A DNA stretch of 39,599 bases from Caryophanales bacterium. Its GTDB lineage: Bacteria; Bacillota_I; Bacilli_A; RF39; UBA660. The stretch's first letter is position 1; each line of letters opens with the position of its first letter. Below the pieces are notes generated by a model that saw nothing but the letters and a program-made list of their open reading frames with translations, had not been told where the DNA came from and searched no databases. Of the stretch, positions 2,375 through 5,894 are shown in pieces. The position numbers were made by a program, and so were the translations under genes. The DNA is taken from the NCBI GenBank assembly GCA_016288635.1, contig JAEEKZ010000029.1, positions 1-39,599 on the forward strand, in the 5' to 3' direction.

Positions 2375-2401
2375 TAAAAAAAATTCTATATATTATAGAA
2401 T
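2375..2401 (-). terminator. Intrinsic terminator after the Cys-rich mini-gene
   Basis: Perfect 8-bp A/T-rich stem (ATTCTATA/TATAGAAT, 3-nt loop) at 2383-2401, followed on the minus strand by eight U residues. The stem begins at the stop codon of the 57-codon gene. Confidence 0.7.
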
Positions 2402-2575
2402 TTATTTTTCTTCGCAGCCACATTCACATTCGCATGTGCATTCTTTTCCCTCTTGGCAGCCACATTCGCATTCAGGGCCACATCCACACTTGCATTCTCC
2501 ATCACAAGTGCATTCTTTGCCTTCTTGACAACCACATGTGCAGTCAGGGCCACAATTACATTTCTTTTCTTCCAT
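2402..2575 (-). CDS. Metallothionein-like Cys-rich mini-protein (57 aa)
   Basis: ATG at 2575, stop TAA at 2402-2404, with AAGGAG about eight bases before the start. The product has 18 Cys in 57 residues, all in CxC or CxxxC spacing, with no aromatic residues, His or signal peptide. It starts MEEKKCNCGPDCTCGCQEGK and has two tandem copies of the unit CGPxCxCGCQEGKECTC. This composition is what bacterial and eukaryotic metallothioneins use to wrap Zn, Cu or Cd in thiolate clusters, so metal binding is a strong inference, but I cannot assign it to a named family. It has its own promoter and terminator and lies just downstream of a membrane-anchored XRE gene. It could instead be a zinc-ribbon-like or thiol-redox peptide. 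Confidence 0.82.
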   Translation of the reverse strand: MEEKKCNCGPDCTCGCQEGKECTCDGECKCGCGPECECGCQEGKECTCECECGCEEK

Positions 2576-2593
2576 TTTATTTTCTCCTTTTTA

Positions 2594-2611
2594 TTAATCT
2601 TGCATGATTAA
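2594..2611 (-). promoter_or_regulatory. Inverted repeat in the leader of the Cys-rich gene (candidate operator)
   Basis: TTAATC and GATTAA arms separated by 6 bp lie between the -10 box and the ribosome-binding site of the Cys-rich gene. The position would suit a repressor. The sequence matches no operator that I can name. Confidence 0.3.
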
Positions 2612-2628
2612 CAGTCCTTTCATAGTAT

Positions 2629-2643
2629 ATTATACACCTTTTT
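2629..2643 (-). promoter_or_regulatory. Promoter of the Cys-rich gene (shared 15-bp element)
   Basis: The minus strand reads AAAAAGGTGTATAAT, ending in a perfect -10 hexamer (2629-2634). The exact 15-mer recurs before the zinc-type lipoprotein gene at 34591-34605. A candidate -35 (GTGACT, 16-bp spacer) would lie in the last codons of the upstream XRE gene. Confidence 0.6.
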
Positions 2644-2648
2644 CTAAA

Positions 2649-3350
2649 TTAGTCACTACATGGTTTGTTTAATGTTAGTGGTATATCATGTGTGATTGTA
2701 TTATCTTTTTTATCTGTTGCGTTTATTCTTAAAAACAAATTGTCATCGCTTATTTTTTTACATGATCTTGCATAATCATCAATTGAAAACTCTACTTCTT
2801 TCAGGAAAGCTTCAAGCGTGATTGGGTTTTTGTCATGAACGTATGAACTTATTTTTATATAGCTATCATCCTTTTTCTCAAATAATGAACATTCTATTTT
2901 TTTATATTGATTTTCATCATTTCCGCCACAGTAATTTATTTTATTAATAAATATTGAGGTTTTATTTTTATCATATGCTACAGTCCCTGAAATAGTAAAT
3001 TTACTGCAGGTTGTTGATAATGTTTTAAATTCATATGAGTTTTTATTGTTTATTATAATTACAATCGTTGCAATAACAATTACTATAGCAAGTAAGCTAA
3101 TTCCTATTATGGTGATACGATTATTCTTTTTGATTGTTGAATTCTTCTCACCATCTAATAAATCGTCAATACTTACTGAATAGTCTTTGCTTATTTCTTT
3201 AAGCAGTGATATGTCCGGGATGTTCTTACCTTTTTCCCAGTTACTTACTGCTTGATATGTAACATTGTATTTTTGTGCAAATTCGGCTTGAGTCATATTA
3301 TTGCCTTTTCGTAAATCTTTAATAAATTTTCCGATTTTCTCTGGGTCCAT
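2649..3350 (-). CDS. Membrane-anchored XRE-family transcriptional regulator (233 aa)
   Basis: Residues 1-65 form an XRE/Cro helix-turn-helix (MTQAEFAQKYNVTYQAVSNW followed by EKGKNIPDISLL). Residues about 77-100 are one long hydrophobic segment. The remaining ~130 residues are predicted extracytoplasmic, with five Cys (TTCSK, NYCGG, ECSLF, SCKK, PCSD). A one-pass HTH protein with an outer domain is a plausible membrane-bound sensor-regulator; the signal is unknown. An extended -10 promoter precedes it, and AAGG lies upstream of the ATG. The next gene downstream encodes the Cys-rich mini-protein, which makes that gene a natural candidate target. A longer paralogue lies at 34647-35867. Confidence 0.85.
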   Translation of the reverse strand: MDPEKIGKFIKDLRKGNNMTQAEFAQKYNVTYQAVSNWEKGKNIPDISLLKEISKDYSVSIDDLLDGEKNSTIKKNNRITIIGISLLAIVIVIATIVIIINNKNSYEFKTLSTTCSKFTISGTVAYDKNKTSIFINKINYCGGNDENQYKKIECSLFEKKDDSYIKISSYVHDKNPITLEAFLKEVEFSIDDYARSCKKISDDNLFLRINATDKKDNTITHDIPLTLNKPCSD

Positions 3351-3409: not shown

Positions 3410-4331
3410 TTATTTATACATCAAAATAATTAGACCTATTATTCCAAGAATAATACATGTAATTTTTTGAATGACTATTCCTTTTCTTAAATCCTCTTTT
3501 ATGTATTTAGGAAAGAATATTGTGCCTAATATTCCAAGTATAAATACGAATGCCCCTTGAAATCCATTTAATACGTTTACAAGTGCTATTGGTAATACTA
3601 TGTTTGCGTAATTTACTAACAAGTTTGCAATTAAATTAAGGAATTCATTTGTAGTATTTAGAAATAAGTATCTTTTACCATTCTTCTTTACCGCTTTAAT
3701 AAATGGAGTTCTAAATTGCTTTAAACATAATAATACTAATCCCATGATTAAGAATCCTATTTGATACCAGAATGCACAAGAGTAATATGAACTGTTCCTT
3801 ATTCCTATGTCAAACAATATAAAGTATATTGAATAGAATAAAGATGATAATGTCATTAAATAATAGTGCTTTAAATTTTTTCTTATTATTTTTTTCATTA
3901 AAATCAAATGAAATAATAATTGATGATAGAATTATGATTAATGAACCTAATATTTGACGTGCTGTTAGGTTTTCTTTAAATAAGATTAGAGCAATAACAT
4001 AGCTAAATACAGGAATCATTTGAAACATTACCACTACAAGTGAGGCATCATTTTCTTCGATTGCTTTAAAGTATAATAAAGTTGCAATTATATATATTAT
4101 TGATGCAATTAATACACTTATTAATGATATAAAACTTATGCTTACCGAAAACTGGCTTAGCACTAGCCATAGTGGGGTTAATACTATACCAGCTACAAAT
4201 GTTGAAAAAATTAATAATACTTTTATAGCATCTTTATTTTCATCAATACCGGAAATCATAAATTTATCTATGTGGTTAGTTATACCCCACAATAAAGATG
4301 CTAATATTGCTAAGAAAACCGCTATAGTCAT
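3410..4331 (-). pseudogene. EamA/DMT-family membrane transporter, split by a +1 frameshift
   Basis: The first half reads from ATG 4331 (MTIAVFLAILASLLWGITNH) through about five membrane segments and stops at 3810. The second half is in another frame (MTLSSLFYSIYFILFDIGIR onward) and ends at 3410. Together they form a normal ~306-residue, ten-helix EamA drug/metabolite transporter. The span is 922 nt, one more than a multiple of three, so a single extra base near 3850-3870 explains the break. The alternative is two overlapping half-transporters, with a second start at ATG 3898. The frame is also open from 4454, but that extension would translate the small RNA region. GGTGAT precedes ATG 4331, and a -10 hexamer lies at 4348-4353. 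An intact relative lies at 22019-22918. Confidence 0.75.
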
Positions 4332-4365
4332 GTCATCACCAATAATTATTATACTATATTTTTTG

Positions 4366-4470
4366 AGTAAAAAAAATGGCTGGACAATGTCCAGCCTCAG
4401 GGGGTTTTGGTTGATCTTGAACGCACTTTTTGACCGTACGCTCAGATCTAGCAAGACTTTTATCTTGCTA
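4366..4470 (-). ncRNA. Free-standing structured small RNA of ~102 nt (unknown family)
   Basis: Three consecutive hairpins read on the minus strand. H1 (4449-4470) has an 8-bp perfect stem TAGCAAGA/TCTTGCTA. H2 (4413-4448) has a ~13-bp stem with one bulged A (GATCTGAGCGTAC with GTGCGTTCAAGATC) and a loop GGTCAAAAA. A single-stranded linker AACCAAAACCCCCTGA follows. H3 (4378-4396) has an 8-bp stem GGCTGGAC/GTCCAGCC followed by eight U residues. A sigma-A-type promoter ends about six bases before H1, so the RNA would begin at the base of H1 and end in its own terminator. The GC-rich stems stand out from the AT-rich surroundings. It matches no riboswitch, 6S, SRP, RNase P, tmRNA or T-box pattern that I can recall. 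Confidence 0.7.
4369..4396 (-). terminator. Terminator hairpin of the small RNA
   Basis: Perfect 8-bp GC-rich stem (GGCTGGAC/GTCCAGCC, loop ATT) followed by an A and eight U residues on the minus strand. It would also stop read-through from the MBOAT operon before the EamA gene. Confidence 0.88.
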
Positions 4471-4475
4471 CAATA

Positions 4476-4504
4476 ATATTATCGTAATTTTATATATTTG
4501 TCAA
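4476..4504 (-). promoter_or_regulatory. Promoter of the small RNA
   Basis: A perfect -35 hexamer TTGACA (4499-4504) is followed by a 17-bp spacer and TAATAT (4476-4481, 4/6). An overlapping GATAAT (5/6) would give a 15-bp spacer. The predicted start falls at the base of hairpin 1. Confidence 0.7.
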
Positions 4505-4520
4505 TTTAATTTTTTAAACT

Positions 4521-5894
4521 TTAAAATCTAAAATAGATAAATGGATTGTATGATCCCACTAAAATAGTGATAATTGATAATACAAATAAAATTCCAACTA
4601 TTACATCTGTTTTAGTATCGTCTTTTAGTATTTTTTTAGATATATCTGTTGAGAATATAATACCTAGTATAAAGGCAATTATATATCTTATTGAGAAGAT
4701 ACCTATTGTAGATAACTTAGTTATATTTCCTAATCCATTTATGCCTATTAAGGATTCTAATGTATCTAGTATAGTTTCAAGGTTTTCTCCTCTAAAAATA
4801 ACCCATCCTACTAATACAATTATTAATGTATATAAATGATTTACAAATTTTGGCGTTTTTTCCAATATATCTTTAAGTATAAACTTTTCTATTAGTAAGA
4901 ATATTGCATAATATAGTCCCCATAGAACGAAATTCCATGATGCTCCATGCCAAAGACCGGTTAATAACCATACAATTAATATATTTCTTACTTGCTTTGC
5001 TAAGCCTTTTCTATTTCCTCCAAGAGGAATGTATACATAGTCTTTAAAGAATGACGATAAAGATATATGCCATCTTCTCCAGAAGTCCGTAATAGATGTT
5101 GCCATATATGGATAATTAAAGTTTTCATTATAATTGAAACCTAACATTTTACCCATACCAATTGCCATGTCAGAATATCCTGAAAAATCAAAATATATTT
5201 GCAATGTATAGGCAATTGAACCTATTAAGGCGCCTATAAAACCATATGTTGTTGATGATTGATTAAATATTTGATCCGCTACAAAAGCTACTGAATTTGC
5301 TATTAATGCTTTCTTTGCTAAACCTATTATGAATCTTTTTGTTCCTTGATAGAAATCATCAAATGTTGTTTTTCTTTTAACTAATTCTTTTTCAATCGTT
5401 TCATATCTTACAATTGGGCCTGCAATTAGTTGAGGGAATGCTACTATATAACATGCTAGATAGAATAAATCATTTTGTACTTTTACTTTTCCTCTATAAA
5501 CATCAATAACATATGATAAAGCTTGGAATGTATAGAAACTTATTCCAATTGGTAAACTAAGTTTTAGAAGTGGAATATTTGTGTTTAATAATGAATTTAT
5601 ATTATTTATAAAGAAATCTACATATTTAAAACTAAATAAGAATAATATATTTATAAACACTATTAAGAATAATAATCCTTTAGATTTATTCTTATCCATT
5701 TTCTTTGTTAAATAATAGTTAATTAATATGGATAGTATAATTAAGAAAATGTAGAAAGGTTCTCCCCATGCATAGAAAGCAAGCGAGAATAATAGTAATA
5801 CTAAGTTTCTTTTCTTAACGTCTTTAATTATAAAGTAACAAAATAGAAATATTGGTAAGAATATAAATATAAATGTAATTGATGAAAATACCAT
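4521..5894 (-). CDS. MBOAT-family membrane O-acyltransferase (AlgI/DltB type)
   Basis: Polytopic protein of 457 aa with about ten hydrophobic helices. Hallmarks of the MBOAT family are present in order: a Pro/Gly-rich segment (LPIGISFYTFQALSYVIDVY, about 114-133), YFDFSGYSDMAIG (about 234-246), DFWRRWHISLS (about 270-280) and WHGASWNFVLWG with the catalytic His at 316. AlgI-type enzymes move acetyl groups across the membrane onto exopolysaccharide or wall polymers together with a DHHW-type partner. The gene upstream is such a partner, and its TAA stop abuts this ATG, so translation is probably coupled. The polymer acylated is unknown, since no glycan synthesis genes are visible nearby. Confidence 0.9.
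   Translation of the reverse strand: MVFSSITFIFIFLPIFLFCYFIIKDVKKRNLVLLLFSLAFYAWGEPFYIFLIILSILINYYLTKKMDKNKSKGLLFLIVFINILFLFSFKYVDFFINNINSLLNTNIPLLKLSLPIGISFYTFQALSYVIDVYRGKVKVQNDLFYLACYIVAFPQLIAGPIVRYETIEKELVKRKTTFDDFYQGTKRFIIGLAKKALIANSVAFVADQIFNQSSTTYGFIGALIGSIAYTLQIYFDFSGYSDMAIGMGKMLGFNYNENFNYPYMATSITDFWRRWHISLSSFFKDYVYIPLGGNRKGLAKQVRNILIVWLLTGLWHGASWNFVLWGLYYAIFLLIEKFILKDILEKTPKFVNHLYTLIIVLVGWVIFRGENLETILDTLESLIGINGLGNITKLSTIGIFSIRYIIAFILGIIFSTDISKKILKDDTKTDVIVGILFVLSIITILVGSYNPFIYFRF

Follow-up and report, generated by a model that had tools for sequence, protein, structure and literature searches.

Bacillus subtilis expresses three small RNAs with C-rich regions, RoxS (RsaE), FsrA, and CsfG, and RoxS and FsrA use these regions on their targets (PMC8216469). 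The C-rich regions of RoxS and FsrA, as well as those of the staphylococcal IsrR, bind ribosome-binding sites (PMC8216469, PMC9410917), and for staphylococci it has been argued that C-rich motifs discriminate well, G-rich stretches being infrequent outside Shine-Dalgarno sequences in an AT-rich genome (PMC9410917). Another well-described arrangement involves tRNA and tmRNA genes, the integration sites of integrative and mobilizable elements (reviewed in PMC5704250), where the 3' part of a conserved gene is the target of tyrosine integrases, the incoming element restores the gene's end, and elements stack in tandem.

The RNA gene described here shares features with both. It lies in a 39,599-nucleotide stretch of DNA from a Caryophanales bacterium (contig JAEEKZ010000029.1; “the window”), which is similarly AT-rich to the staphylococcal case. 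Like RoxS, FsrA, and CsfG of Bacillus and IsrR of Staphylococcus, the RNA falls into the class of about 100 nt, has stem-loops, an unpaired C-run, and an intrinsic terminator, and belongs to an AT-rich Bacillota host (PMC8216469, PMC9410917). It differs from these four in having no Rfam match at threshold (as far as they are in Rfam 15), in placing its one C-run next to the terminator, in a 3' linker, rather than in loops or several regions, in its invariant ACC(A)AACCCCCTGA, and in its promoter, in which we saw neither a Fur-type operator nor, by base count over 98 copies, any other shared palindrome. The resemblance to tRNA and tmRNA sites concerns the relatives of the window, except that here a new small RNA gene is the target and what the element restores is the terminator of that gene.

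A sequence-only reading of the window had proposed an independent structured RNA on the minus strand, between an MBOAT acyltransferase gene upstream (4521 to 5894, minus strand; Pfam PF03062) and a broken EamA transporter gene (3810 to 4331, minus strand; Pfam PF00892), and all of the parts that it listed were recovered. By sequence scan, a -35 box, TTGACA, occupies positions 4499 to 4504 and is separated by 17 bp from a -10 box, TAATAT, at 4476 to 4481 (both on the minus strand), which together predict a transcription start near 4470. The predicted fold, on the same strand, begins with hairpin 1 (TAGCAAGAT-AAAA-GTCTTGCTA; 4449 to 4470), of 9 bp with a 4-nt loop, and passes directly into hairpin 2 (4413 to 4448), of 13 bp with a one-base bulge and a loop in which UACG at the 5' side is conserved. 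The two stems are thus adjacent, as had been claimed. The C-rich linker that follows (AACCAAAACCCCCTGA; 4397 to 4412, minus strand) is single-stranded, with a predicted unpaired probability of 0.83 to 1.0, and leads into the intrinsic terminator (4369 to 4396, minus strand), composed of an 8-bp stem (4396 to 4378) and a run of eight T residues (4376 to 4369) corresponding to the eight terminal U residues first noticed. The lengths originally given for the three stems (8, 13, and 8 bp) stand for hairpin 2 and the terminator and need amendment for hairpin 1, which has 9 bp, not 8.

The predicted transcript of about 102 nt has a GC content of 43%, versus 28% for the window, in line with the elevated GC content first noticed. 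The minimum free energy of the 112-nt stretch is -43.1 kcal/mol, compared with -20.0 (standard deviation, 3.7) for shuffled sequences (z = -6.3), and none of 200 shuffles folded as well as the native sequence. Over the 2.7 kb scanned, we observed 2 terminator-like sites where 0.4 would be expected, a notable excess; promoter-like sites numbered 29 versus 22.4 expected, and the promoter match in the window is not significant when taken alone.

In related genomes, well over 100 copies share the promoter, hairpins, linker, and terminator with the window. A promoter-like pair of boxes lies upstream in 126 of 132 distinct copies, with spacers of 17 (92 copies), 18 (31 copies), or 16 (3 copies), and the -35 box reads TTGACA or TTGACT, 16 to 18 from the -10-like box, in 117 of the 132. 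A terminator follows the RNA in 117 of 122 related copies. Among the five exceptions, L024, L037 (plus strand), and L120 also lack a promoter, L175 has a hairpin that the scan missed, and L038 has lost its terminator. When aligned to the family model, the copies show compensatory changes at all 19 base pairs (9 of 9 in hairpin 1 and 10 of 10 in hairpin 2), with 90.6 to 91.6% of cells paired and a covariation score of 0.54 to 0.55, versus 0.21 to 0.23 for shuffled alignments and at most 0.14 for slid partners. RNAalifold recovers both stems from the fitted alignment, and an unfitted alignment still yields compensatory changes at 17 of the 19 pairs (score, 0.45). To limit circularity, we built a second covariance model from 74 copies with the window left out. 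This model scores the window at 57.4 bits (E = 5.8e-13) and gives no other hit in it; because its alignment came from the first model, which had the window among its 42 rows, the independence is near but incomplete. Both hairpins, whose loss in relatives would have spoken against the proposal, are therefore kept family-wide, and we regard the RNA gene as almost certainly real and conserved, as judged from comparative sequence analysis.

A BLASTN search with the whole element finds a full copy nowhere else, and the 17- to 19-nt linker piece has perfect matches in dozens of genera of the window's family, which is probably the RF39 group. The linker pattern, allowing at most one mismatch, turns up in 169 of the 386 family genomes, usually as a single match, and the control pattern read backward does not appear among the matches listed. 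With each species represented by one genome, a scan gives at least 117 loci, nearly all in records labeled as uncultured Bacilli, Tenericutes, Mycoplasmatota, Firmicutes, or Erysipelotrichaceae and mostly from metagenome assemblies; the carriers include “Candidatus Caccenecus avistercoris,” whose genus NCBI places in Bacilli incertae sedis. Among family genomes of at least 93% completeness, the first covariance model (R1) detects the RNA in 162 of the 193 drawn and in 79 of 88 genera, nearly always as a single copy (the window's genome also has one), and the true share may be higher because the search used stricter filters. Across 247 genomes sampled from the whole class, 24 of the 26 model matches fall within the window's family. 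Of the matches in other families, one (G457; 27.7 bits) was rejected as a chance match inside a coding gene, and the second (G494) is genuine and sits next to recG, on a 3-kb contig that may be contamination. A search of IMG/VR gave a single contig, next to an integrase.

Neither the window nor the loci of 20 relatives match any Rfam family (Rfam 15) at the gathering score; a match to a known cis-regulatory family, which had been named as grounds for abandoning the proposal, is thus absent from this set. The best subthreshold match of the region is the nqrA-II motif (RF04310; 26.1 bits, E = 0.019), far under its gathering score of 55, and nqrA-II is a cis-regulatory type of motif, which the RNA gene here is not. 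We found no description of this RNA in the main texts of the literature searched, and it may be listed without a name in a large screen such as that of PMC8040213. We consider it a new family within an established category, that of bacterial small RNA genes, and, going by the genomes searched, it is close to universal, as a single copy, in one uncultured family of gut Bacilli.

The position of the gene bears on whether it might instead be a cis-acting leader or attenuator of EamA, as the sequence-only reading had allowed. In the window, the EamA start codon lies on the same strand, about 37 bases past the end of the terminator. In most relatives, however, the RNA follows recG on the same strand (recG identity was confirmed by Pfam in L183), with the recG C terminus less than 600 bases away in 120 fetched loci (some of which overlap one another), and is itself followed by integrases or unrelated genes, not by EamA. 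The recG gene of the window's genome is on another contig and has no RNA copy beside it, from which it follows that the RNA is kept intact at different places, here between the MBOAT gene and EamA. The absence of a cis-regulatory Rfam match also stands against a leader, as do the terminator and a separate TATAAT box at 4348 to 4353 (minus strand), found where it had been reported, which could serve EamA as a -10-like box of its own. The recG-downstream context in most relatives rules out an EamA leader as the role of the family, and we hold a leader function to be extremely improbable. The independent structured RNA gene is the reading upheld by conservation, compensatory changes, promoter, terminator, and a recG context unrelated to EamA.

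Two neighboring genes merit separate mention. The EamA reading frame is indeed broken, being split into 3810 to 4331 and 3410 to 3907; the two frames meet at 3810 to 3907, beside a T run (plus strand, about 3889 to 3895), and the split could be a true frameshift or a homopolymer assembly error. Directly downstream of the RNA copy in genome G106 (L195, positions 2394 to 3329, plus strand), we observed a gene for a 311-amino-acid protein starting MQIFVKTLNGKHITLEVEP. It has a hydrophobic stretch at its N terminus and an unmistakable ubiquitin domain (PF00240, E = 5.8e-22), making it a ubiquitin-like protein, probably exported, of a gut bacterium.

Beyond the linker, the downstream DNA of the copies abruptly ceases to be alike, and near-identical downstream stretches recur across species. 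For at least 15 of the listed matches, the contig ends no more than about 80 bases farther downstream, as would be expected if assemblies break at variable insertions. The last ten bases of the linker, CCCCCTGAAG, recur at the far end of elements in many relatives: this core appears three times in tandem in L183, with a different terminator after each, and in L182 and L024 one element end bears a longer linker copy of about 20 bases. A direct repeat at both element ends combined with an integrase at one end was found in L182, L183, and L186 and not in the window. Six integrase-like genes picked downstream of the RNA all encode tyrosine integrases (PF00589). An integrase homologue lies within 2.5 kb in 12 of the 45 copies with at least 2.5 kb of downstream sequence (a minimum, as the search covered the relatives of seven integrases), on the opposite strand in all 12. 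One element carries a Mob_Pre relaxase; a complete type I restriction-modification system is among the cargo, as are a GmrSD-type gene and candidate defense genes. Core recurrence, tandem elements, terminators, and integrases together indicate that the 3' end of the linker is the attachment core and that the element supplies the terminator, such that the RNA gene stays whole after integration because each element brings its own. By sequence comparison, the gene very probably serves as an attachment site in relatives. The equivalent of the core in the window (4395 to 4404, minus strand) reads CCCCCTGAGG and is unoccupied, no second core being present there.

Two further arrangements were observed at these sites. 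In G302, one sequence upstream of the core continues into two different downstream sequences on contigs 63 and 99 of the same assembly (L187 and L188), as if the population held alternative insertions at the RNA gene. In L193, inverted copies of the linker (5341 to 5357, plus strand, and 5578 to 5594, minus strand) lie about 220 bases apart, one belonging to a full RNA and the other being a linker end only, possibly the result of an inversion or a decayed insertion.

With CCCCCTGAAG recurring at element ends, and with ends that are common to elements of different genera, one might ask whether the conserved sequence is a DNA element only, an attachment site plus terminator kept by mobile elements rather than for an RNA function. 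The promoter and two hairpins nonetheless lie beyond the core and are conserved, every base pair showing compensatory changes, and sites without a visible element, the window's included, retain the RNA. Moreover, restoration of a terminator by the elements makes sense only if the gene is transcribed. We accordingly judge a purely DNA-level role to be very unlikely.

As to what the RNA does, the minus strand from 4470 to about 4369 very probably encodes a free-standing noncoding RNA of about 100 nt, with a housekeeping-type promoter and an intrinsic terminator of its own, that probably acts in trans. The hairpins may stabilize the RNA and present the C-rich single strand, which would pair with G-rich stretches, mainly Shine-Dalgarno sequences, and block translation without Hfq. 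A search detects no Hfq in any of 21 clade genomes, and the control search finds Hfq in B. subtilis and Escherichia coli, so pairing would be Hfq independent. Summed over 16 genomes, AGGGGG occurs 393 times at start-codon distance, about twice the 195 occurrences of its reversed control, indicating that suitable target sites exist. On this analysis, we lean toward an Hfq-independent, trans-acting small RNA with a C-rich linker antisense to G-rich ribosome-binding sites as the most likely mode of action, and hold that view with modest confidence.

The tests for targets covered start sites and complements in up to 29 genomes and found no conserved mRNA target. The extended complement of the linker, AGGGGGTTTT, occurs nowhere in the window's genome except in the RNA gene; elsewhere it lies at a few start sites, with no gene repeated among them. 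Two genes, scpA and a comK-like gene, recur among AGGGGG start sites in different genera (four genomes). Wider tests supported neither as a target: of 29 genomes, GGGGG is present at scpA in 4 and at the comK-like gene in 13 (with GGAGG in 14), and no clear tie to the presence of the RNA emerged. The latter gene (L375 to L403), which by resemblance we take to encode a ComK-like competence regulator, is present in 29 of 30 family genomes, and its ribosome-binding site is usually strong, being divided between GGGGG and GGAGG.

The unpaired C-run is conserved across species, and the invariance of the linker is in part a selection effect, many loci having been fetched with the linker pattern. Copies that the model found without the exact pattern vary, reading ACCGAACCCCCTGAAG or ending in -AAA in four genomes, CCAAACCCCCTGAAG in G038, and GCCAAACCCCCTGACG in G031, and every copy found by structure retains AACCCCCTGA; variants of the linker include ACCGAACCCCC and CCAAACCCCC. 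The invariant linker, at more than 10 bases, is longer than plain Shine-Dalgarno masking needs of a seed, which leaves room for a protein partner. The linker could then be a protein site, with no antisense pairing, in a structured RNA that acts by protein binding as a scaffold, sponge, or regulator of activity. Such an RNA would also fit the conserved bases of the hairpin 2 loop, the lack of a conserved mRNA target, and a near-universal single copy with no evident regulated promoter, which resembles a housekeeping RNA. Against it, no partner protein is known, and a C-rich linker in an AT-rich genome whose ribosome-binding sites are G-rich matches what is seen in known antisense RNAs. We treat a protein partner of the linker as a serious rival to antisense pairing, one that is possible though doubtful.

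A family-wide, single-copy RNA gene that is missing from Rfam points to an RNA layer in uncultured gut Bacilli that is invisible to current annotation, in a clade without detectable Hfq; the covariance model built here can annotate the gene. A more far-reaching outcome, which we think unlikely, is that this is a housekeeping-type RNA of the whole bacterial family with a mechanism unlike that of any described small RNA (for example, an obligatory RNA-protein particle on the ACCAAAACCCCCUGA strand) and that its gene is also a main docking site of the family's defense-carrying mobile elements. Near-universality in an uncultured family and the double role as a landing site lift the RNA above the routine, and, because integrases land on its linker, the locus marks the point at which restriction-modification and other defense genes enter these genomes.
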